Below, piece after piece: positions 1-19,997 of a stretch of 64,000 bases of DNA. Position 1 is the stretch's first letter, and every line of letters starts with the position of its first letter. The DNA lies in assembly GCF_017308015.1 (NCBI RefSeq), contig NZ_JAFKFW010000016.1:1-64000 (forward strand), written 5' to 3'. The notes beneath the pieces are model-generated. The model worked only from the letters and a program-made list of their open reading frames with translations, was not told the DNA's origin and ran no database searches. The translations under genes and the position numbers were made by a program. The stretch is from Allobosea sp. Lineage in GTDB: Bacteria > Pseudomonadota > Alphaproteobacteria > Rhizobiales > Beijerinckiaceae.

Positions 1-956
1 ATCAGCGCGGCCCCGAGCCTGCGCCCGCCGGCCTCGGGCGCGACGGCCACGCTCCAGACGGTGAAATCCTCGGGTTCGATATCGAGCACCAGCGCGGCTT
101 CCAGGTCACCACCCTCGCCTTCCGCGAGCCAGACCTCGTGCTCGGCGACGACCTGCGTGTAATCGGCGATCCGCGGGAGAGACGGCACGCCGATGATGCT
201 CTCGTTCGGCGTATAGGCGGCGTTCTTGAGCGCAAGGATCGCCGGGACATCGGCCAGCCCCGCCCGGCGCAGGGTGACCGCGCCGACATGGCCCCCGGTC
301 TGGTTGAAGGCACCGAGCGAGAGCTTCTGCTGCCCCTGCGCGTCGAAATTGGCCGGCGCCAGCCAGCGGCGGAAAGCCTGGGCCCGCACCGGCCACTCGC
401 CGTCGAGGATCGAGAACCAGGCGGTGTCGCGATTGGCGCCCTTGACCACCATGTGCTGGCGGAAGAGGCCCTCATACTGGAAGCCGAAGCGCAGAGCGGC
501 GCGCTTGGAGGGCTCATTCCGGTTGTTGCACTTCCACTCGTAGCGGCGATAGCCGAGCGAGAAGCCGTAATCGCCGACGAGATAGATCGCCTCGGTCGCC
601 GCCCGTGTCCGCTGCATCGCCGGCGAATAGGTGATCCAGCCGACCTCGAACACGCCGTGCTCGGGCCGGATCTCCATGATCCAGAGATGGCCCTTCGCCT
701 TGCCGTCGGCCTTGTCGATCACGGCGAGCGGCACGATGCCGGCTTTCGCCACCATCGAATCGAGCAGCGCGCGATAGGCTTCCTTGTCCTTCGGCGGCGC
801 GGCCGGCAGCCAGTCCCAGACATCGCCACGCCCGACGTCACAGGCCCAGATGTCGTCGATATGCCTGGCGACATCGAGCGGCTCCAGCCGGCAATACTGG
901 CCTTCCAGGACCTTGGCCGGCGGGAAAGGCGGCGCCTTCCAGTCGAGCGTCGTCAT
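1..956 (-). CDS. Tandem GNAT acetyltransferase (C-terminus beyond window)
   Basis: The reading frame from ATG at 956 stays open to the window edge (about 318 codons). Residues about 15-215 form a RimJ/RimL-type GNAT domain: the segment WKCNNRNEPSKRAALRFGF followed by YEGLFRQH is the classic acetyl-CoA-binding and C-terminal part of that family. From about residue 220 a second GNAT domain begins (TLRRAGLADVPAIL), with a motif-A-like stretch SVAVAPEAGGRRLG just before the edge. Each domain would transfer an acetyl group from acetyl-CoA to an amine; the substrate is unknown. The start overlaps the stop of the upstream small gene by ATGA, so translation is probably coupled. The two-domain layout was read from the sequence; the exact end cannot be seen. 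Confidence 0.85.
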   Translation of the reverse strand, partial: MTTLDWKAPPFPPAKVLEGQYCRLEPLDVARHIDDIWACDVGRGDVWDWLPAAPPKDKEAYRALLDSMVAKAGIVPLAVIDKADGKAKGHLWIMEIRPEHGVFEVGWITYSPAMQRTRAATEAIYLVGDYGFSLGYRRYEWKCNNRNEPSKRAALRFGFQYEGLFRQHMVVKGANRDTAWFSILDGEWPVRAQAFRRWLAPANFDAQGQQKLSLGAFNQTGGHVGAVTLRRAGLADVPAILALKNAAYTPNESIIGVPSLPRIADYTQVVAEHEVWLAEGEGGDLEAALVLDIEPEDFTVWSVAVAPEAGGRRLGAAL

Positions 957-11856: not shown

Positions 11857-13017
11857 TCAGAGGCGCGCGCGCCCGGCCGCCTCGGCAAGAAGCTCGGTCA
11901 CGATCGCAGCCGAGCGGGCCGCGCCCTCGCGGTCGAGCGGCAGGACCGGCGGCCGAGAGCCGACGGCTTCCCCGACAGCATCCGCCAGCGCCACGGCATC
12001 CCCCACGAAATCACCCGACAGCCGGAAACAGCGCGCCAGCCCCGCCCGCTCCATCGCCTCGGCCCGGACGGTCTGTTCGGTCTCGTTGCCGGCATCGAAG
12101 GGCACGACGATCGCCGGTCGCCCGGCTGCGACGAGATCGAGCACGGTGTTGTAGCCGGCCTGGCTGATCGAGACCGCGCAGCCGGCGAGCAGCGCCGGAA
12201 AGTCCGGCCGCGCCCGCTCGATCACGACCTTGTCGGGAGCGTCGGCCGCCAGCAGCGCCAGATCGGTATCCGCCATGCCGCGCCCGGCGAGAAGCCGCCA
12301 GCGTCGCCCGGAACGGTCGAGCCGCGCCGCCGCGACCGCGCAGGCGAAAAGCGGCAGGGCCGCGGCCGAGCCGCCACCGGAGACGATGACCTCGCCATTG
12401 TCCTGTGCGGTGCCGACCGGCCGATCATCGGCGAGATAGCCGGTATAGCGCAATTTCGCCGCGAGCCCCTCGCCCACTGGCCATGACCGGTCGAGCGGCA
12501 GGAAACCGGCGTCGCCATGGACCAGGACCGCGTCGAACACCCCGGCGATCCGCTCCTCGGCTTCGGCGATCCGGTCGGGCCGCGGCGTCACCAGAACGTC
12601 GCGCACAGAGGACAGAACCAGCGCCTCGGGCCGCGCCGCCTTCACTGCCGCGATCAGTGCGAGGAACTCCCCGGCGAGTTGCCGTCGCCCGAAGGGGAAG
12701 TGCTCGACGATAACCACATCGGGCCGCAATCGCGTCGCCAGCTCTGCGAGCATGGCGATGCGGGCAGTCTTCCGCTCCGGATCGATCGGCTCGCCGGCCT
12801 CGTCGAGGAGCGTCCGGAAGTCGGTGCCTTCGGTCCTGATCGGCGGCAATTGCACGAAAGCGAAGGGCTCGCCATCCATCACGCGCAACGGCATGCCGCC
12901 GCTGGCCAGCGTCGCGGAGAAACCGCCTTGCACTAGTGCCCGCGCCAGATTCGCCGCACGGACGAGATGGCCGCTGCCGAGCAGATGCGTCACGGCGATC
13001 AGAACGGAAGCGCTCAT
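11857..13017 (-). CDS. MurG-like (GT-B) glycosyltransferase
   Basis: A 386-aa GT-B fold protein. The N-terminal half shows the glycine loop VTHLLGSGHLVRAANLARAL (residues 9-28), typical of MurG/UDP-GlcNAc-type enzymes. The C-terminal half has VIVSGGGSAAAL near 203 and SISQAGYNTVLDLVAAGRPA near 285, matching the nucleotide-sugar-binding region of glycosyltransferase family 28. It should transfer a sugar from a nucleotide donor, on the cytoplasmic side. It overlaps the upstream GT4 gene by ATGA, as the last gene of the minus-strand glycan arm. It is distantly similar in layout to the gene at 28498. Confidence 0.85.
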   Translation of the reverse strand: MSASVLIAVTHLLGSGHLVRAANLARALVQGGFSATLASGGMPLRVMDGEPFAFVQLPPIRTEGTDFRTLLDEAGEPIDPERKTARIAMLAELATRLRPDVVIVEHFPFGRRQLAGEFLALIAAVKAARPEALVLSSVRDVLVTPRPDRIAEAEERIAGVFDAVLVHGDAGFLPLDRSWPVGEGLAAKLRYTGYLADDRPVGTAQDNGEVIVSGGGSAAALPLFACAVAAARLDRSGRRWRLLAGRGMADTDLALLAADAPDKVVIERARPDFPALLAGCAVSISQAGYNTVLDLVAAGRPAIVVPFDAGNETEQTVRAEAMERAGLARCFRLSGDFVGDAVALADAVGEAVGSRPPVLPLDREGAARSAAIVTELLAEAAGRARL

Positions 13018-14264
13018 GCCCCCTCACCCGCCGAGCGCTTCAGCATCCCGGCGATCCGATCGAGACCGGCCTGCGCCGAGAAGGCGTCCGTCAGGCGCGC
13101 ATAAGCCGCCTCGCCCAACGCCGCTCGTTTCCCGGGCGCCCCGGCGAGTTCACCCAGCGCGGCCGCCAGGGCCGGGACATCTCCCGGCGGGACCAGCAGC
13201 CCCTCTGCGCCGTCGCGCACGAATTCCGGAATCCCCGCGAAATCGGTCGCGACGATCGGCAGGCCCTGACTTGCCGCCTCCATCACCACATTGGGCAGGC
13301 CATCGCGGTCGCCGTCGCCCGCCTCTTTCGAGGGAAGCACGAAGACGTCGGCAGTGCGCAAGGCGGCGATGACCTCGTCCTGCGCCTTCGGCCCGGCCCA
13401 GACGATCCGGTCGTCGAGCCCCAGCGTCCGCGCCTGCGCCTGCAGGGCCTTGAGCTTCTCCCCCCCGCCGATATGCGTCAGCCGCCAGTGCAGCGCTGCC
13501 GGCAGCCGGGCCAATGCCTCCAGCAGATCGTCGAAACCCTTCTTCGCCACCGCTCTTCCGATGGTGACGAAGCGCGCGGGGTCGGCCGGATCCGTGCCAT
13601 CGCGCGCCGATCGCGGTCCCGGCGCCGGAAAGCGCGCAAGATCGAGCCCGTGATAGAGCAGCCCGACCTTGTCCGGCCGGTCGGAAAGCCGCTCCAGCTC
13701 GCGATGCCCGTCGCGCGTGCAGGTGACGCCCCAGGCGGCAGAGGCGATCTTCTCGCGCTTTTCCCAGTCTTCGGTTGTCCAGATGTCCTTGGCATGGGCC
13801 GAGAACGACCATGTCAGGCCGCCGAGCAGGGCGGCATAGCGGATCACCGAAGCCGGGGTATGCAGATAGTGCACATGCAGGTGCCCGATATCATCGGGCA
13901 ATTCATGCGCCATCACGCAGGCTTGCCCGAAGCGGCGCCAGCGGTTGCGTGTCCGGTCGCGGGCGAGATCGCGCAGGAAGACTGGCAGCAAGCGCAGCAG
14001 GCCCGGCCGCAGCAGCGCGGCAAGCATCCCGCGCACCACGCGAGCCGGCTCGTCATGCAGATATTCCGGCAGGTAGCGCACCGGCGCCGTGATCTGATGG
14101 TGCATCAGATGCTTCGCCGCATCTGTCGGATGGCGCAGCGACCAGATTTCGAAGGGCAGCCCGCGCTGCTGTAAACCCAGCAATTCCTGCGCGATGAAAG
14201 TCTCCGACAGCCGCGGATACCCTTTCATCGCCACCGCGATGCGCGGCGCCTCCCCCGCCGTCAT
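13014..14264 (-). CDS. Family 4 glycosyltransferase
   Basis: A 416-aa retaining GT-B glycosyltransferase. The N-terminal domain has YPRLSETFIAQELLGLQQRG near residue 16, common in colanic-acid-type WcaL/AmsK enzymes. The C-terminal GT4 domain has FVTIGRAVAKKGFDDLLEAL near 232, then GLPNVVMEAASQGLPIVATD near 326, the EX7E-type donor-binding segment. It probably adds one sugar in synthesis of an envelope glycan. ATGA overlaps join it to the methyltransferase upstream and the MurG-like gene downstream. Confidence 0.9.
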   Translation of the reverse strand: MTAGEAPRIAVAMKGYPRLSETFIAQELLGLQQRGLPFEIWSLRHPTDAAKHLMHHQITAPVRYLPEYLHDEPARVVRGMLAALLRPGLLRLLPVFLRDLARDRTRNRWRRFGQACVMAHELPDDIGHLHVHYLHTPASVIRYAALLGGLTWSFSAHAKDIWTTEDWEKREKIASAAWGVTCTRDGHRELERLSDRPDKVGLLYHGLDLARFPAPGPRSARDGTDPADPARFVTIGRAVAKKGFDDLLEALARLPAALHWRLTHIGGGEKLKALQAQARTLGLDDRIVWAGPKAQDEVIAALRTADVFVLPSKEAGDGDRDGLPNVVMEAASQGLPIVATDFAGIPEFVRDGAEGLLVPPGDVPALAAALGELAGAPGKRAALGEAAYARLTDAFSAQAGLDRIAGMLKRSAGEGA

Positions 14265-14923
14265 CGCCGCCCGATCAGCATGAAGCGCGTATAGTTCTTC
14301 GTCGGCCGCGCGCCTGAGAACCAGATATCCGCCAGTCCCACCTGCTCGCGGAAGGCGTCGAGCGAGGGCACACAGCTCCGGTGGTCCGGCTCGCGGAAAT
14401 AGTCGTTGGACTGCAGCACCAGCGGCAGGCCCTTCGGCAAGGTCGCCAGCCAGCCAGGCACATCGTCGAGATGCTCGCAGCTCGTATTGACGATGAGCCC
14501 CGGCAGGGTCGACTGCGCTGCGAAATCCATCGCCATCATGTCGGCCGTCACCGCCCGGAACCGCCCCGCCGCGACATGGCGATGGTTCAGGATCTCCGCG
14601 ACCGCTGCGCAGGAGGGGTCGATATCGAGGCTGACGATTTCGGAGATCGCGAGCCTTTCATCGTCGAGCAGCAGCGCGCCGAGCACGCCATACCAGGCGC
14701 CCAGCACCCAGACCGGCCCCGCAGGCTTCGGACAGGCCTGCGCCAACGCCTCGACCAGCCATTGCTTCGAGGCGATCTGCTTGTGGTTGCAGGCGATCGA
14801 GAGATCGGCTGGCGCGCCCTTGCCGTAAAGCCGCGCGACATCGGCGACGATGCGGTTGCCCGAGAGCGCCGCCATGCCGCGCAGCAGGTCGTGAAAGGCC
14901 TCTTGGGGCGGTTCGGGCATCAT
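14261..14923 (-). CDS. Class I SAM-dependent methyltransferase-like protein
   Basis: A 220-aa Rossmann-like protein. VWVLGAWYGVLGALLL (about residues 71-86) resembles SAM motif I, and SEIVSLDIDPSC shortly after supplies the acidic ribose-binding residue. The later NTSCEHL and GLPLVLQSNDYF fit motifs IV-V. The substrate is unknown; the coupling to two glycosyltransferases suggests methylation of a sugar or lipid intermediate. The ATG at 14923 is the furthest start in frame and is followed within 4 bp of its end by the GT4 start. Confidence 0.75.
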   Translation of the reverse strand: MMPEPPQEAFHDLLRGMAALSGNRIVADVARLYGKGAPADLSIACNHKQIASKQWLVEALAQACPKPAGPVWVLGAWYGVLGALLLDDERLAISEIVSLDIDPSCAAVAEILNHRHVAAGRFRAVTADMMAMDFAAQSTLPGLIVNTSCEHLDDVPGWLATLPKGLPLVLQSNDYFREPDHRSCVPSLDAFREQVGLADIWFSGARPTKNYTRFMLIGRR

Positions 14924-14999
14924 GGGTTGGTCGTCATCCGGAAAAGCCGGCGGACCATAGACATGCGCGCCCGGAAAAAACCAGCCGCCTGCACAAGGG

Positions 15000-16808
15000 T
15001 CAGCCCTTTTCGTTCGCCTCGCCCTGCTCCTGCACCACCTCTGCCGGCGTGGTCACCTCGCCCCCCGCGACCACGGGCGCGGGCATCGCCACGTCCTCCC
15101 GCTTGCGGCGGGCGATTTCCGGCGCGCTGGCGAAGCCATAGGCCGTCAACGGCTTCTCCCGTCCCTTGATGGCGATCTTCAGCGTCGTCGTGCCGGCATA
15201 GCTGCGTCCGCTCGCCCGGATCGTGTCCTCGGAGACGACGATATCGGCAAGCACGCGCCGCGTCGCCGACTCGAGCTGGCTTGCGACCATCACGGTCTGG
15301 CCGACCGTGATCTCGCGCCGGCCGAGATTGTCGTTCTCGACCGCACCGGTGATCGCATCGCCGGTATGGATGCCGATGCCGATCCGGAGCGGCAGAGGCA
15401 GCGCCGCGCCGTACTCGCGATTGAGCGCATCGACCGCGCGCACGATGTCCCCCGCAGCGGTGATCGCGGCTTGCGCCCCTCGGGCCGGCGGACCCTCGAG
15501 ACCGAATACCGCCATGAAACCGTCGCCATAGAAGGCGTCGATCCGCCCTTCATGCGCGGTGATCGCCTGCCCCATCTCGTCGAAGAAACGATTGAGCAGG
15601 CCGATCAGCTCGCGCGGCAATTGCCGCTCGGAGAGAGCGGAGAACGCCCGGAGATCGGCCACGACGACGGTCAGACCGCGCTTGCCAGCGGCGTCGTTCA
15701 GCTCGAACGCGCGCGTCGCGCCGGCATTCAGCCGCGAGGCCAGCAGAATCTGTACCTGCAGATCCTCGCGCGGCCGGATCTGGCAGGCGAGTCGGACGCC
15801 TTCGGGAGCCGATATCCGCCGCAGCAGCTTGGCCTCGTTCGGGCCCGGCCTCGGCAGCTTGTCGTTGCCGTCCATCACCAGCACGCGGCAGGTCGCGCAG
15901 CGCGCCCGTCCACCGCAGAGCGCGGCATGGGGAATACCGAAGCGCCGGAACATCTCGAGCACCGTCGGCCCCGGCGCCAGCCTGCGCGTGCCGTGGCCGA
16001 CGAAGCGCACCGTGATCTGGCGTGTCGTCCGCACCCGGATCTCGCGAATGCCGATGAACAGCAGGAAGGAGGCGACAAGGCCGTAGAAGGCGCCCTTCCC
16101 CCACATGACATCGCGGACGAACATCGCCGCCTGCGCATCGCTGACCAGTTCGGCCGGCAGCGCCATCTGCTTGGCCTCGCGCGCGCCGACGGAGAAACCG
16201 ATGATGGCGAGAAGCGGGATCAGGATCGCCATCAGCAGGAAGGGATCGCGCCAATGGCGATAGCTGTCGCGGGCGCGCAGCATGAAATGGATGCCGAGGA
16301 TGCCATGCGTCCAGACCAGCAGCAGCAGCAGCGACTGCGTCAGCGCGGCGCCCGGCCAGAGCCGGCGCAGGACCGAACGATAGCCCTCGTCAGCACCGAA
16401 ATAGATGCCCATCACCCGCGTACCGATGATGTGGTCGACCAGCAGCAGCGGGATGGTGAGGCCGAGCGCGATCTGCAGCATCTCGCGCAGCGGCATCTTG
16501 AAGGTGCGGCGTTGCACCACCCGCAGCAGCGCGAAGACCGGATGGACGATCAGCGCACCGTAGAGCACGGCCGTTCCGAGCCGGGAATGCCAGAAGCCGT
16601 AGCGCCAGTCCTGGACCTTCTCCATGGCCTCGAGACCGAAGATGCCGACGGCGTGATTCAGGAAATGGGTCGTCGCGAAGGTAAGCAGGATCAGCCCGGA
16701 AACGAAGCGGATATCCCGGTTCCAGGACGAGACCTGGTCCATGCTCGCCCCCATGCCGCCGCGCGACATTCCGGTGCGGCTCGTGCCTGCAGCTTGCGGC
16801 CGGTTCAT
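15000..16808 (-). CDS. Membrane ferredoxin-cyclase fusion (CyaC-like, degenerate)
   Basis: A 602-aa fusion. Residues about 33-255 are a multi-helix membrane domain with many helix histidines (H48, H52, H74, H89, H126, H168, H174), like the haem-binding anchor of succinate dehydrogenase or rhizobial CyaC. Residues about 264-355 form a [2Fe-2S] ferredoxin domain with C298, C304, C307 and C342. Residues about 378-560 are a class III cyclase domain: the metal aspartates D385 and D429 remain, but the purine-specifying Lys is A425, and the transition-state Asn and Arg are M507 and Q511. It may be a redox sensor that no longer makes cAMP. It is 16 bp downstream of the CNB gene. Confidence 0.85.
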   Translation of the reverse strand: MNRPQAAGTSRTGMSRGGMGASMDQVSSWNRDIRFVSGLILLTFATTHFLNHAVGIFGLEAMEKVQDWRYGFWHSRLGTAVLYGALIVHPVFALLRVVQRRTFKMPLREMLQIALGLTIPLLLVDHIIGTRVMGIYFGADEGYRSVLRRLWPGAALTQSLLLLLVWTHGILGIHFMLRARDSYRHWRDPFLLMAILIPLLAIIGFSVGAREAKQMALPAELVSDAQAAMFVRDVMWGKGAFYGLVASFLLFIGIREIRVRTTRQITVRFVGHGTRRLAPGPTVLEMFRRFGIPHAALCGGRARCATCRVLVMDGNDKLPRPGPNEAKLLRRISAPEGVRLACQIRPREDLQVQILLASRLNAGATRAFELNDAAGKRGLTVVVADLRAFSALSERQLPRELIGLLNRFFDEMGQAITAHEGRIDAFYGDGFMAVFGLEGPPARGAQAAITAAGDIVRAVDALNREYGAALPLPLRIGIGIHTGDAITGAVENDNLGRREITVGQTVMVASQLESATRRVLADIVVSEDTIRASGRSYAGTTTLKIAIKGREKPLTAYGFASAPEIARRKREDVAMPAPVVAGGEVTTPAEVVQEQGEANEKG

Positions 16809-16824
16809 GCGCTGATCGACCTCG

Positions 16825-17274
16825 TCAAACGGTTTCGTGCTCGCGCAGCAGGACGGAGGCGAGCCGGTGAACGCGGGCCGCCAGATCGCGGCAGACCGCC
16901 AGGCTGAACTCTGGAACGGTCTGGAGCAGTTCGAAGAACAGATCCTTGGGAATCCGCAGTGCCAGAACCCGCGACTTGGCGCTGATGGTGGCGATGAAGG
17001 GCTGGCCGCTCAGCAGGGCCACATCACCGGTGATGGTCCCGGTGTCCTTGAGGAAGCGCCGCTCCTCGCCGTTCTCGCGCGGCTGCAGGATCTCGACCTC
17101 GCCCTCCATGATGACGTAGACGCCCGAGAGCTTCTCCTGGGGGCTGATCAGGACGGCACCCGGCTCGAACTGCAGCCGCTCGCCCATCAGGGCGACGAGC
17201 TTGAGCCGCGATGCCGGCATGTCCTGAAACAGCGGGATGCAACGCAGACAGCCGATATCGGTTTCCAGACTCAT
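16825..17274 (-). CDS. Stand-alone cyclic nucleotide-binding domain protein
   Basis: A 149-aa protein consisting of one CNB (Crp-type) beta-roll, residues about 13-135, without a DNA-binding helix-turn-helix. The jelly-roll core is clear (FEPGAVLISPQEKLSGVYVI, then EGEVEIL). The phosphate-binding cassette reads TGDVALLSGQPFIATISA: the Glu is Asp and the cyclic-phosphate-binding Arg is F93, so ordinary cAMP/cGMP binding is doubtful. C9 and C12 form a CxxC near the N-terminus. It overlaps the ABC gene by ATGA and precedes the cyclase-like gene, so the three products are probably partners. Confidence 0.85.
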   Translation of the reverse strand: MSLETDIGCLRCIPLFQDMPASRLKLVALMGERLQFEPGAVLISPQEKLSGVYVIMEGEVEILQPRENGEERRFLKDTGTITGDVALLSGQPFIATISAKSRVLALRIPKDLFFELLQTVPEFSLAVCRDLAARVHRLASVLLREHETV

Positions 17275-19997
17275 GATCGCGCCTCCATTCGCCCGGGGTT
17301 CTCGAAGCGCGGCGCCCGCCTGTTCACCGCATCGGGCGCGCCCTGCGCTTCGACCGTCCCCGTCGCTCCGTGGAACACCACCCGTTGCGGGGCCTCTCCT
17401 GCAAGTTTAGCATCTCCGACCAGAAGAAACAGCGTCATGTCCGCGCAATAGCCCTCCAGCCGGGCGACGATCTCCTCGGAATCGTCCGAAATCGCGAGCA
17501 GGGCGGAAATGTCGAGCACCGCGATCTGCGGCGCCTTGACCAGCGCCTGCACGAGCGGGATCGCCTGGCGCAGCCGGGCCGGCAGGTAGCGCCCGCGAAT
17601 ACCACTCTCGGTATCGAGGCCTAGCCGGTACAGCGCCTCGCCCAGCCCCGAGCGGGCCAGCGCCTGCAGCACGATCTCCCCGACCTTGCGCGCGGCATCG
17701 GGCACGCCGTAGCCGATGCGCCCGAACATCAGGTTGTCGCGCACGCTGGCACCGACCATCACCTTGTCGGGATCGTAGAAGTCGACATCGTCGGCCGCAT
17801 CCGCCGGCAGATGCTTGCGGAAGCTCTCCCGCGCCCGCAGGACGCGCCGCTCCAGGCGGGCATCGATGAGGTTCAGCCTGTGCTTGGGCTCGATATAGCC
17901 CAGTGCTAGCGCCACGAGATCGCGCTCCGTCTCCTGGTCGAGCGGATTGCGCATGTCGTGCTTGGCCAGCAGGTCCGCCAGCTCGTTCAGGCGCTCGAAC
18001 TCGAAATTCGCGCCGAAGGAATAGCGCTCGAACAGCGCATGGCCCTGCGGCAGGCCGGCAAAGATTTCGACGACGGTCGCGACGATGCGCGCGCCCATCT
18101 CGGCCAAAGGCTCGACCAGTGCCTCGGCTTTCAGGATCGACTGGGCGTAGGGTTCGAACAGCAGGGTCGCGCTGTCGAAGCGCATCGTGGTTCGCGTCCC
18201 GAAGATCAGGTTCTCGACGATCGGCGCATTGCGATTGTAGCGGTCGAGCACGAAGGGTTCGATCAGATCGCTCTGCTTGATCCGCACGAGCTCGGCCGCG
18301 ACCACCCGGCGCGCCGTGATGAGGCGCTCGATCGCCTGTTCGCTGACGGGGCGCATCACCTTGCCGCCGAGCCCGAGCTCGTAGACCTCCTGCGTGCAGC
18401 CGAAGAGGTCGAGCAGTTCATGGACCCGGGCTCCGAGCTCGGCCGCGTCCGCCACGCCGACCCCGGCATAATCCGTCCAGTCGGCTTCGAACGGGAAAGG
18501 CGAGTTGCCGGAGCGGATCGCCTCGACGAAACGGCGGTGCTCGGGCGCGGATATCCCGCCTTCAGCCTTCAGGTCGGGGCGCCGGCGCCGGAGCGGCAGG
18601 AGGATGTTGTCGCGCATCGAGCCCGCGATGATCTCGGGCTCGTCGCCGGAATAGCCGATGATATGGCTCGCCCGCTCGACCGACATGCCCGCGAGCGGCT
18701 CGCCGTCGATCAGCACGCGGCCCGTATAGCTCGTCGCCTGCCTGCCGAGAATCCGGCCGAGCACGTCCTTGCCACCCCCCTGCGGGCCGATCACCGCGGC
18801 GACGCCCGGCCGCGTCAGGGTGAACGAGAGCGGCGTCAGCAGCGGCTGGCCGCGGTTATCCAGCATCTGCACGGATTCGAGCCGGATCTCGCCCTTCTCC
18901 GGCAGGGTCGCGACGCCGTTCTCCTCTTCGAGGACGAGGGTCTCGTCGCTGTTGAACTGGGAGATGACCTGATCGTATTTGATCGTCACGTCGTTGCGCT
19001 GCTGGTCCCAGTCGATCAGCTCCTTGATCGGCGGCGGCAGGTCGCGATAGGCGGCGATCACCGCAACGAGCTGACCGATATCGAGCCGCCCCTGCAATGC
19101 GAAGAAGCCGCCGATGGAGTAGAAGAAGAACGGCGTGATCTGCGCGAGCAGGTTGTTCAGGAACTTGACTGCGAATTTCCGTTTGTAGAGCGCGTAGCGG
19201 ATATCGAAGAGTCGCCCGAGACGCCCTGCGATGTCGGACTGGACATAGGCCGTGGCGCCGTGGCCCTGGATCATCGGGCCGGCATCGACGATCTCGCCGA
19301 TTCGGCCCGCGAGCTGGCGCGAGGCGATCTGGCGCTCGCGGCCGAGCCGGAGTTGCTCGCGCCGCAGGATCGGGATGATGATTGCCTGCGCCAGCACGAT
19401 CAGAAGCGCGATCGAGCCCAGCCAGAAGCTCTGCGCCATGATGAAGACGAGTGCCGTCAGCGCCTGGCTGAGCAGGAAGACCGGCTGGATGAAGGCATCG
19501 CCGACGAAGCCGCCGATCGGCTCGACCTCGTCCTTGATCATGCTGGCGATCTCGGCCGGCTTGACCGAGCGGATCTCCTCGGGCCGGAACCGCATGAGCT
19601 GGCTGAACAGGTCGTAGCGCATGCGCCTCAGCATCCGCTCGCCCAGAATGCCCTTGCGTACGTTGATGACATATTTGAAGGCGCCGTTGATCAGCACCAG
19701 CAGCAGGAAATAGCCGCTCAGGCCGATCAGCAGGCCGTACTGGCCGACCTCCACGCCCTCCGACAGCCTGTAGCTCGCCCCACCGAGCCATGACGGCAGA
19801 TGCAGGGTGAAATCCATCAATGTCGCGGTAGTCCGGCCGTCCTTGAAGGCACCGCCCTGAATCGCGTCGTTGACGATGCGCTTGGGCACGTCGAACGAGG
19901 CCCAGTTGAACGGGATCGAGACCAGAATGATCAGCAGGACGACGACCTGCTCGGCCCGGCTCTTCTGCCAGATGTAACGGAAGAGATTGGTCTCCAA
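17271..19997 (-). CDS. ABC exporter-like protein with degenerate, split ATPase domain
   Basis: A 908-aa membrane protein from TTG 19997 (no ATG nearby in frame). Residues about 15-320 are an ABC exporter transmembrane domain. The ATPase domain starts near 368, but its Walker A is GPQGGGKD (404-411; D replaces Ser/Thr). About 330 extra residues follow before a signature-region remnant, LPARLRQ (805-811), and Walker B is IAVLDIS (I replaces the catalytic Glu). The H-loop His is missing. The motif [VM]-x-[DE]-N-[LI] occurs three times (about 461, 595 and 752). The protein may scaffold or sense rather than pump. It leads the trio with the CNB and cyclase-like genes. Confidence 0.85.
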   Translation of the reverse strand: METNLFRYIWQKSRAEQVVVLLIILVSIPFNWASFDVPKRIVNDAIQGGAFKDGRTTATLMDFTLHLPSWLGGASYRLSEGVEVGQYGLLIGLSGYFLLLVLINGAFKYVINVRKGILGERMLRRMRYDLFSQLMRFRPEEIRSVKPAEIASMIKDEVEPIGGFVGDAFIQPVFLLSQALTALVFIMAQSFWLGSIALLIVLAQAIIIPILRREQLRLGRERQIASRQLAGRIGEIVDAGPMIQGHGATAYVQSDIAGRLGRLFDIRYALYKRKFAVKFLNNLLAQITPFFFYSIGGFFALQGRLDIGQLVAVIAAYRDLPPPIKELIDWDQQRNDVTIKYDQVISQFNSDETLVLEEENGVATLPEKGEIRLESVQMLDNRGQPLLTPLSFTLTRPGVAAVIGPQGGGKDVLGRILGRQATSYTGRVLIDGEPLAGMSVERASHIIGYSGDEPEIIAGSMRDNILLPLRRRRPDLKAEGGISAPEHRRFVEAIRSGNSPFPFEADWTDYAGVGVADAAELGARVHELLDLFGCTQEVYELGLGGKVMRPVSEQAIERLITARRVVAAELVRIKQSDLIEPFVLDRYNRNAPIVENLIFGTRTTMRFDSATLLFEPYAQSILKAEALVEPLAEMGARIVATVVEIFAGLPQGHALFERYSFGANFEFERLNELADLLAKHDMRNPLDQETERDLVALALGYIEPKHRLNLIDARLERRVLRARESFRKHLPADAADDVDFYDPDKVMVGASVRDNLMFGRIGYGVPDAARKVGEIVLQALARSGLGEALYRLGLDTESGIRGRYLPARLRQAIPLVQALVKAPQIAVLDISALLAISDDSEEIVARLEGYCADMTLFLLVGDAKLAGEAPQRVVFHGATGTVEAQGAPDAVNRRAPRFENPGRMEARS

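Follow-up and report, generated by a model that had tools for sequence, protein, structure and literature searches.

What might an ABC-exporter-fold protein, a CNB protein and a class III cyclase do together when all three carry substitutions at the residues of their ATP, phosphate-binding and catalytic sites? Three such genes lie side by side in the stretch of DNA analysed here (the window), which comprises 64,000 nt of Allobosea sp. (NZ_JAFKFW010000016.1 of assembly GCF_017308015.1, positions 1 to 64,000, forward strand). A first-pass annotation described the tight coupling of the three minus-strand genes and quoted residues from each product. The coordinates, once re-read, agree: the ABC stop and the CNB start share a 4-base ATGA overlap, and a 16-base gap separates the CNB and cyclase genes. 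All the quoted cyclase, CNB and ABC residues are present in the window sequence (Table 1).

Table 1. The three genes, their subdivisions and the genes that come next on the same strand.
Feature	Position	Strand	Description
ABC-exporter-fold protein	17271..19997	-	908 aa; TTG start at 19997
ABC protein, transmembrane part	residues ~1-350		degenerate NBD from ~357
ABC protein, three-fold repeat of the NBD	residues 440-577, 575-737, 735-880		
CNB protein	16825..17274	-	149 aa; no DNA-binding domain found; F93 for phosphate-binding Arg, D84 for Glu
Putative pseudo-cyclase (by sequence)	15000..16808	-	602 aa; N-terminal membrane anchor, 2Fe-2S ferredoxin, class III cyclase domain (~375-560)
220-aa protein	14261..14923	-	follows the cyclase in the probable operon; no Pfam hit at a threshold of 0.01
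GT4-type glycosyltransferase	13014..14264	-	PF13692, PF00534
GT28-type glycosyltransferase	11857..13017	-	PF04101

Conservation of the three genes

We analysed 147 loci, i.e. 47 loci of named genomes and 100 further regions picked by score and spread rather than at random. The 35 loci with at least 67% identity to the ABC protein of the window are called the Bosea group, and 12 of them were placed on the ABC tree. As the CNB of a locus, we counted the closest hit on the same strand up to 700 bases away, or a hit in the same frame. In DNA this rich in GC, gene calls by longest ORF are unreliable, and they were taken as leads only. Two loci are unscorable for the cyclase (L023 reaches the end of its contig, L025 has a broken frame), the ABC frame of L047 is broken, and L215, whose ABC gene is on another contig, was excluded from the count of linked cyclases.

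All 47 loci of named genomes encode an ABC relative followed by a CNB homologue. A cyclase follows in 37 of them, namely the 35 Bosea-group loci, L044 and L048. All 35 Bosea-group loci have the ABC, CNB and cyclase genes in this order and on one strand (the L023 cyclase is cut by the contig end and that of L025 lies in two frames). Hence, the arrangement is not chance. The earlier suggestion that the trio is conserved as a unit in the same order is borne out in this group, and also by gene content: among 61 congeneric genomes, 54 have the ABC gene, the same 54 have the cyclase, and the identical 7 lack both (ABC and cyclase being the genes searched).

The ABC family extends well beyond this group. 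Among the genomes sampled, it was found in 132 of 385 from the class (E 1e-60), in 99 of 297 from the order and in 26 of 299 from the phylum, 25 of which belong to the class; the one match outside is partial. Of the 147 loci, 142 have a CNB domain, either in an adjacent same-strand gene or, at 16 loci, fused to the ABC protein. In a predicted model of a fused chain, the linker at residues 858-881 falls below pLDDT 50 and is presumably disordered. The CNB-less loci (L173-L177) hold divergent ABC relatives from five genomes, all belonging to a single other genus in the same family as the window. These match the ABC family mainly over the repeat and the C-terminal part, and weak CNB-like hits lie past the 700-base limit in L176 (884 bases off) and L175 (~4 kb).

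The genes could in principle be mere neighbours in a glycan operon, functionally uncoupled. They share their probable operon with three more window genes, and most ferredoxin cyclases of the order lie elsewhere: among the 85 order genomes that have one, it adjoins ABC-CNB genes, by coordinates, in 19. That ferredoxin cyclases often occur apart from the unit also counts against tight coupling in general. Yet the CNB-ABC fusions and the joint presence or absence of ABC and cyclase across the 61 genomes make this absence of coupling very unlikely. So does the presence of a cyclase behind the CNB gene in loci where no glycosyltransferases were found within the fetched stretch (L044, L088, L091, L101 and L108). 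From gene order, fusion and co-occurrence, we infer that the three proteins probably act as one complex and not through the usual messenger.

Some loci depart from this layout. Other genomes of the window's genus (L167-L172) carry a second ABC copy with a C-terminally fused CNB domain and an intact CNB cassette, and the same stretches hold other cyclases in which Asn and Arg are retained. Only one ABC copy is present in the window's genome. In two loci (L043:8428-9339 and L045:11291-12202), the cyclase behind the CNB gene is replaced by a metallo-beta-lactamase-fold protein (PF12706 in L045), a possible nucleotide phosphodiesterase.

The ABC protein and its glycosyltransferase neighbours

The ABC protein of the window has the transmembrane domain and the overall fold of an exporter, and the ATP-site motifs of an ATP-driven exporter are degenerate. 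It matches PF00664 (48.4 bits) and PF00005 (25.5 bits, cut-off 25), and no peptidase or CNB domain was found within its 908 aa (Pfam, E 0.1). Its predicted structure has a mean pLDDT of 82.9 and would form a full exporter fold. A re-comparison of Foldseek's own matches also points to the exporter fold, with ordinary exporters scoring the same as SUR, and speaks to that fold, not to function. Walker A reads GPQGGGKD (residues 404-411, with K410-D411), Walker B has D829 followed by I830 where the catalytic Glu is expected, the signature LSGGQ is degraded to LPARL and the Q-loop has D452 where Gln is expected. Within the NBD, an insert of ~300 residues forms a three-fold internal repeat. This insert (residues 440-880) repeats the NBD's own helical part, an unusual route to a larger ATPase domain.

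Across the homologues, the Lys-Ser/Thr of Walker A is kept in 1/148, and the Asp-Glu of Walker B in 1/147 scorable proteins, which is the same one. As judged from these motifs, the degenerate ATP site is a family-wide trait. The Lys of Walker A alone is retained in 39/148 homologues, the window's included, and the signature is partly retained in some others, such as L110, which reads L-T-G-G-Q. Because of these remnants, members of the family may bind ATP without turning it over.

Two glycosyltransferases are encoded close to the unit in much of the class. In the Bosea group, 33/35 loci have a homologue of the 220-aa protein, which we take to resemble a methyltransferase, and 32/35 have the GT4 homologue near the unit, as many as have the GT28 homologue. 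In the 91 other loci whose CNB gene is separate, 71 have the GT4 and 57 the GT28 homologue near the unit; among the 16 fused loci, each enzyme occurs in one. In loci other than those of the Bosea group, transcription of these genes mostly points away from the ABC gene. The separate-CNB form thus seems tied to glycan synthesis by location, and the fused form appears to lack that link. The annotation had proposed redox sensing linked to envelope glycan export. The redox half of the proposal agrees with the intact sensor residues described below (51/51) and the link to glycans with the two neighbouring genes; for export, the evidence is this neighbourhood, and an ordinary glycan pump is disfavoured because the ATP site is degenerate.

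The ABC protein might nevertheless still be an ATP-driven exporter of glycolipids, tuned by the CNB protein and the cyclase, if it relied on residual nucleotide binding or on an intact half-transporter encoded elsewhere. The predicted full exporter fold, the strongly conserved transmembrane part, the glycosyltransferase neighbours, the retention of the Walker A Lys by the window protein and other homologues, and the partly kept signatures such as that of L110 would all fit. We consider this quite unlikely. Both halves of the composite ATP site, Walker A and signature, are damaged in the window, so a heterodimer would still have no intact site. The near-complete loss of the Lys-Ser/Thr pair among the homologues also argues against it, and no second half-transporter was found in the run of minus-strand genes at 11857-19997.

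The cyclase, the CNB protein and the order of the losses

By its architecture, the window protein is a ferredoxin class IIIb cyclase, a type whose anchor spans the membrane six times and has four intramembrane His. It matches PF00211 (51.9 bits) and Fer2 PF00111 (26.8 bits, cut-off 21), and its N-terminal half contains His 48, 89, 126 and 168 and Cys 298, 304, 307 and 342. All eight positions are invariant across 51/51 linked cyclases, the window's included. The catalytic domain keeps both metal-binding Asp (D385 and D429; present in 51/51 and 50/51 linked cyclases), and has A425, M507 and Q511 in place of the substrate Lys, the transition-state Asn and the Arg. The complete D-K-D-N-R set is found in 8/50 linked cyclases, plus 4/4 further linked copies. 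The full set is present in 12 of the 20 linked cyclases that lie outside the Bosea group. Within the group, 0/33 scorable loci have it, and Lys, Asn and Arg are all lost in 33/33. For comparison, we took 20 ferredoxin cyclases that are not encoded next to the ABC gene, likewise picked by score and spread from the order-level hits; these controls keep all His and Cys and have D-K-D-N-R in 19 cases and D-Q-D-N-R in one. A point against the pseudo-cyclase reading is that activity is known for some class III cyclases whose active-site residues are unusual, mycobacterial examples among them.

The CNB protein shows a parallel change. The window copy has a CNB fold by sequence (PF00027, 56.9 bits, cut-off 27.5), and both the Glu and the Arg of the phosphate cassette are absent from it. 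The Arg is present in 104/107 CNBs outside the Bosea group and in 0/35 inside, where position 93 is F or Y in 32/35 (T in 2, N in 1) and position 84 is Asp in 35/35. The sole Arg-less CNBs outside the group are those of L121, L122 and L178 (His, His and Ala), for which no linked ferredoxin cyclase was found. We used the motif R[ST]A as our own criterion for a canonical CNB cassette; PKA-type cassettes do not require its Ser/Thr. Among the 91 loci without a linked ferredoxin cyclase, the motif is present in 82 and absent in 9.

The losses can be ordered on the trees. Loci with degenerate cyclases form one clade on the tree of the ABC transmembrane part (98/89), and degenerate copies form one clade on the tree of the cyclase anchor and ferredoxin (100/93). 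L048, with its intact cyclase, sits beside the degenerate clade on both. L054 falls inside that clade on the ABC tree, and its contig ends before any cyclase could follow. In these phylogenies, the Lys, Asn and Arg of the cyclase are lost once, in one supported clade, and the loss of the CNB Arg is nested inside it, in the Bosea group. Outside the Bosea group, an R[ST]A CNB lies beside 12/12 intact linked cyclases and 0/8 degenerate ones, the latter including near-copies (L089, L090 and L186) and one of the same genus (L087), and the CNBs of these 8 loci still carry the Arg. As the degenerate cyclases are one clade, this correlation is essentially a single evolutionary event and not a statistical association.

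Read from this nesting, the order of events is a degenerate ATP site, then loss in the cyclase, then loss of the CNB arginine, since the ABC loss is family-wide, the cyclase loss is confined to one sub-clade and the CNB loss lies within that. The first-pass annotation had instead proposed a loss in all three partners at once, which these different depths contradict, and we rejected simultaneous loss. It had also taken intact residues in homologues as a sign against its idea. Such residues are found for the cyclase and the CNB protein, in the numbers given above, so that the idea fails for these two and stands in this respect for the ABC protein. The alignment that it had called for, of the cyclase and CNB sites over all copies, gives degenerate sites in all scorable Bosea-group loci and intact ones in many other loci.

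We then compared the window with seven Bosea-group loci by the Nei-Gojobori method, and found dN/dS values of 0.02-0.13 for the degenerate cyclase domain in 7/7 comparisons. The ferredoxin and the ABC transmembrane part share a range of 0.05-0.15, and the anchor has 0.13-0.36 and the NBD 0.16-0.26. The CNB protein spans 0.10-0.49, with the highest value of the six parts in 3/7 comparisons and a tie in a fourth. A cyclase domain without its chemistry thus ranks among the most constrained parts of the unit. One could suppose that the cyclase and the CNB protein are remnants carried along by the operon after cAMP signalling was lost. The earlier loss in the cyclase and the high CNB values would suit such decay. 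The constraint on the degenerate domain, the eight invariant His and Cys positions and the strict co-occurrence of ABC and cyclase all speak against it and make it highly improbable; in its neutral form, we rejected it on the dN/dS of the cyclase domain.

A different account, and the main rival to signalling by contact, is that the messenger has changed. The cyclase domain would make or bind another nucleotide, and the CNB protein, with an aromatic residue at the Arg site, would bind another small ligand, as in HetC. The aromatic residue at position 93 and the uniform Asp at 84 look like redesign rather than decay. The two metal-binding Asp are kept and the cyclase domain is strongly conserved. 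The CNB domain of HetC binds ppGpp, according to PMC10986499. These observations are opposed by the uniform loss of Lys, Asn and Arg in the scorable Bosea-group cyclases and by the CNB dN/dS, highest or tied in four of the comparisons. We regard a changed messenger as rather doubtful, and contact as the simplest reading of the sequences.

The supply of cNMP by another class III or class I cyclase of the window's genome was considered and rejected: neither a second class III cyclase (PF00211, E 0.001) nor a class I cyclase was found there. The linked cyclase is the only PF00211 place in 19/54 trio genomes, as judged by coordinates and not by residues. Of the 11 other CNB hits in the window's genome, 8 were read; one has GE..PR and none has R[ST]A. 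The former is a 155-aa CNB protein (G000:C2, L003:1396-1860) that adjoins a response-regulator-like gene. It keeps GE..PR although the sole class III cyclase place of that genome is the degenerate one.

Candidate mechanism and comparison with known systems

Our preferred reading, which we hold tentatively, is that the window unit may well be a once cAMP-gated, non-hydrolytic ABC complex that is now driven by contact with a redox-responsive pseudo-cyclase. The ancestral unit would have been a cAMP-gated membrane protein of the ABC kind acting as a gate, receptor or regulator and not as a pump. Gating by cAMP is likely the ancestral mode, because the CNB cassette is intact in most sampled lineages and intact cyclases lie beside the CNB gene in some. 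In some lineages, a redox-controlled cyclase, encoded behind the CNB gene directly or within 3 kb, would feed cAMP to the ABC-CNB pair. In the window's lineage, the messenger would have been dropped. The anchor and ferredoxin would sense quinone, oxygen or redox state, the pseudo-cyclase would relay the signal to the CNB protein through direct contact, and the CNB protein would set the state of the ABC dimer. The weakest step concerns the client process, which would likely be the envelope glycan made by the adjacent glycosyltransferases.

In this contact-driven complex, direct contact would have taken over from a second-messenger pathway, and intermediates would still be alive (loci in which the cyclase is degenerate and the CNB Arg is kept); a signalling enzyme would have turned scaffold with its sensor kept. 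It would add a widespread bacterial ABC family with an inactive motor, given its presence in about a third of the class genomes sampled. It would also become possible to test what ferredoxin cyclases are for, because the sensor half stays conserved in proteins whose enzyme half does not. A broader view, doubtful but conceivable, is that Alphaproteobacteria hold a class of proteins with the ABC-exporter fold that work without ATP hydrolysis, as ligand-gated gates or receptors switched by CNB domains, and that contact with the redox-sensing pseudo-cyclase has taken the place of the cAMP step in the Bosea group. As regards their logic, such gates would be the bacterial equivalent of SUR or CFTR.

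Known ABC proteins with a regulatory role or a degenerate site include SUR, CFTR and the degenerate halves of heterodimeric exporters. The present family differs from these in that both site halves are degenerate, across a bacterial class, and in that the NBD is repeat-expanded and has a CNB partner. The MsbA model matches the window ABC protein weakly (82 bits, cut-off 602), and compared with MsbA-type exporters this protein has a degenerate ATP site, the three-fold NBD repeat and the CNB partner.

The closest relatives of the cyclase are of a described kind. Cluster 1 of Beltz et al. 2016 comprises ferredoxin-type class IIIb adenylate cyclases (PMC4821796), with which the window protein shares an anchor with four intramembrane His, followed by a ferredoxin and a class III domain. 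The same paper likens these anchors to the cytochrome b subunits of fumarate reductase and succinate dehydrogenase (PMC4821796); for the window anchor, this likeness is weak (TIGR02046, 18 bits, cut-off 96). Unlike the cyclases described there, the window protein has lost three catalytic residues (Lys, Asn and Arg) and is encoded in an operon with ABC and CNB genes, and the portion of PMC4821796 consulted mentions neither ABC or CNB partners nor catalytically dead members.

The pairing of a CNB domain with an ABC exporter fold also has a precedent in HetC of Nostoc, a CNB-bearing peptidase ABC exporter (PMC10986499). There, the CNB domain is needed for function, its binding of ppGpp was seen in vitro, and the ATPase Glu is required. 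HetC has N-terminal CNB and peptidase domains, whereas here the CNB domain is separate or, at other loci, fused C-terminally; HetC has a working ATPase, whereas the ATP site of the window protein is degenerate and the Pfam search gave no peptidase domain for it (HetC as described in PMC10986499). The parts of the unit are thus of known kinds (ferredoxin cyclases, CNB-bearing exporters and degenerate ABC sites). In the portions of the open-access literature covered, we found no description of the alphaproteobacterial ABC-CNB pair or of a ferredoxin pseudo-cyclase, nor of their combination and stepwise history.

Sinorhizobium pSymB encodes an ABC homologue with an adjoining CNB gene, which from its position is probably SMb20813. 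The msbA homologue of S. meliloti is named as SMb20813 in PMC10945364. The Sinorhizobium copies open the ABC-CNB part of the unit to experiment in laboratory strains. In the S. meliloti 1021 record used (L187, on pSymB), the ABC homologue lies in two overlapping frames, and an intact CNB comes after it; the S. americanum homologue (L189) reads as one frame.
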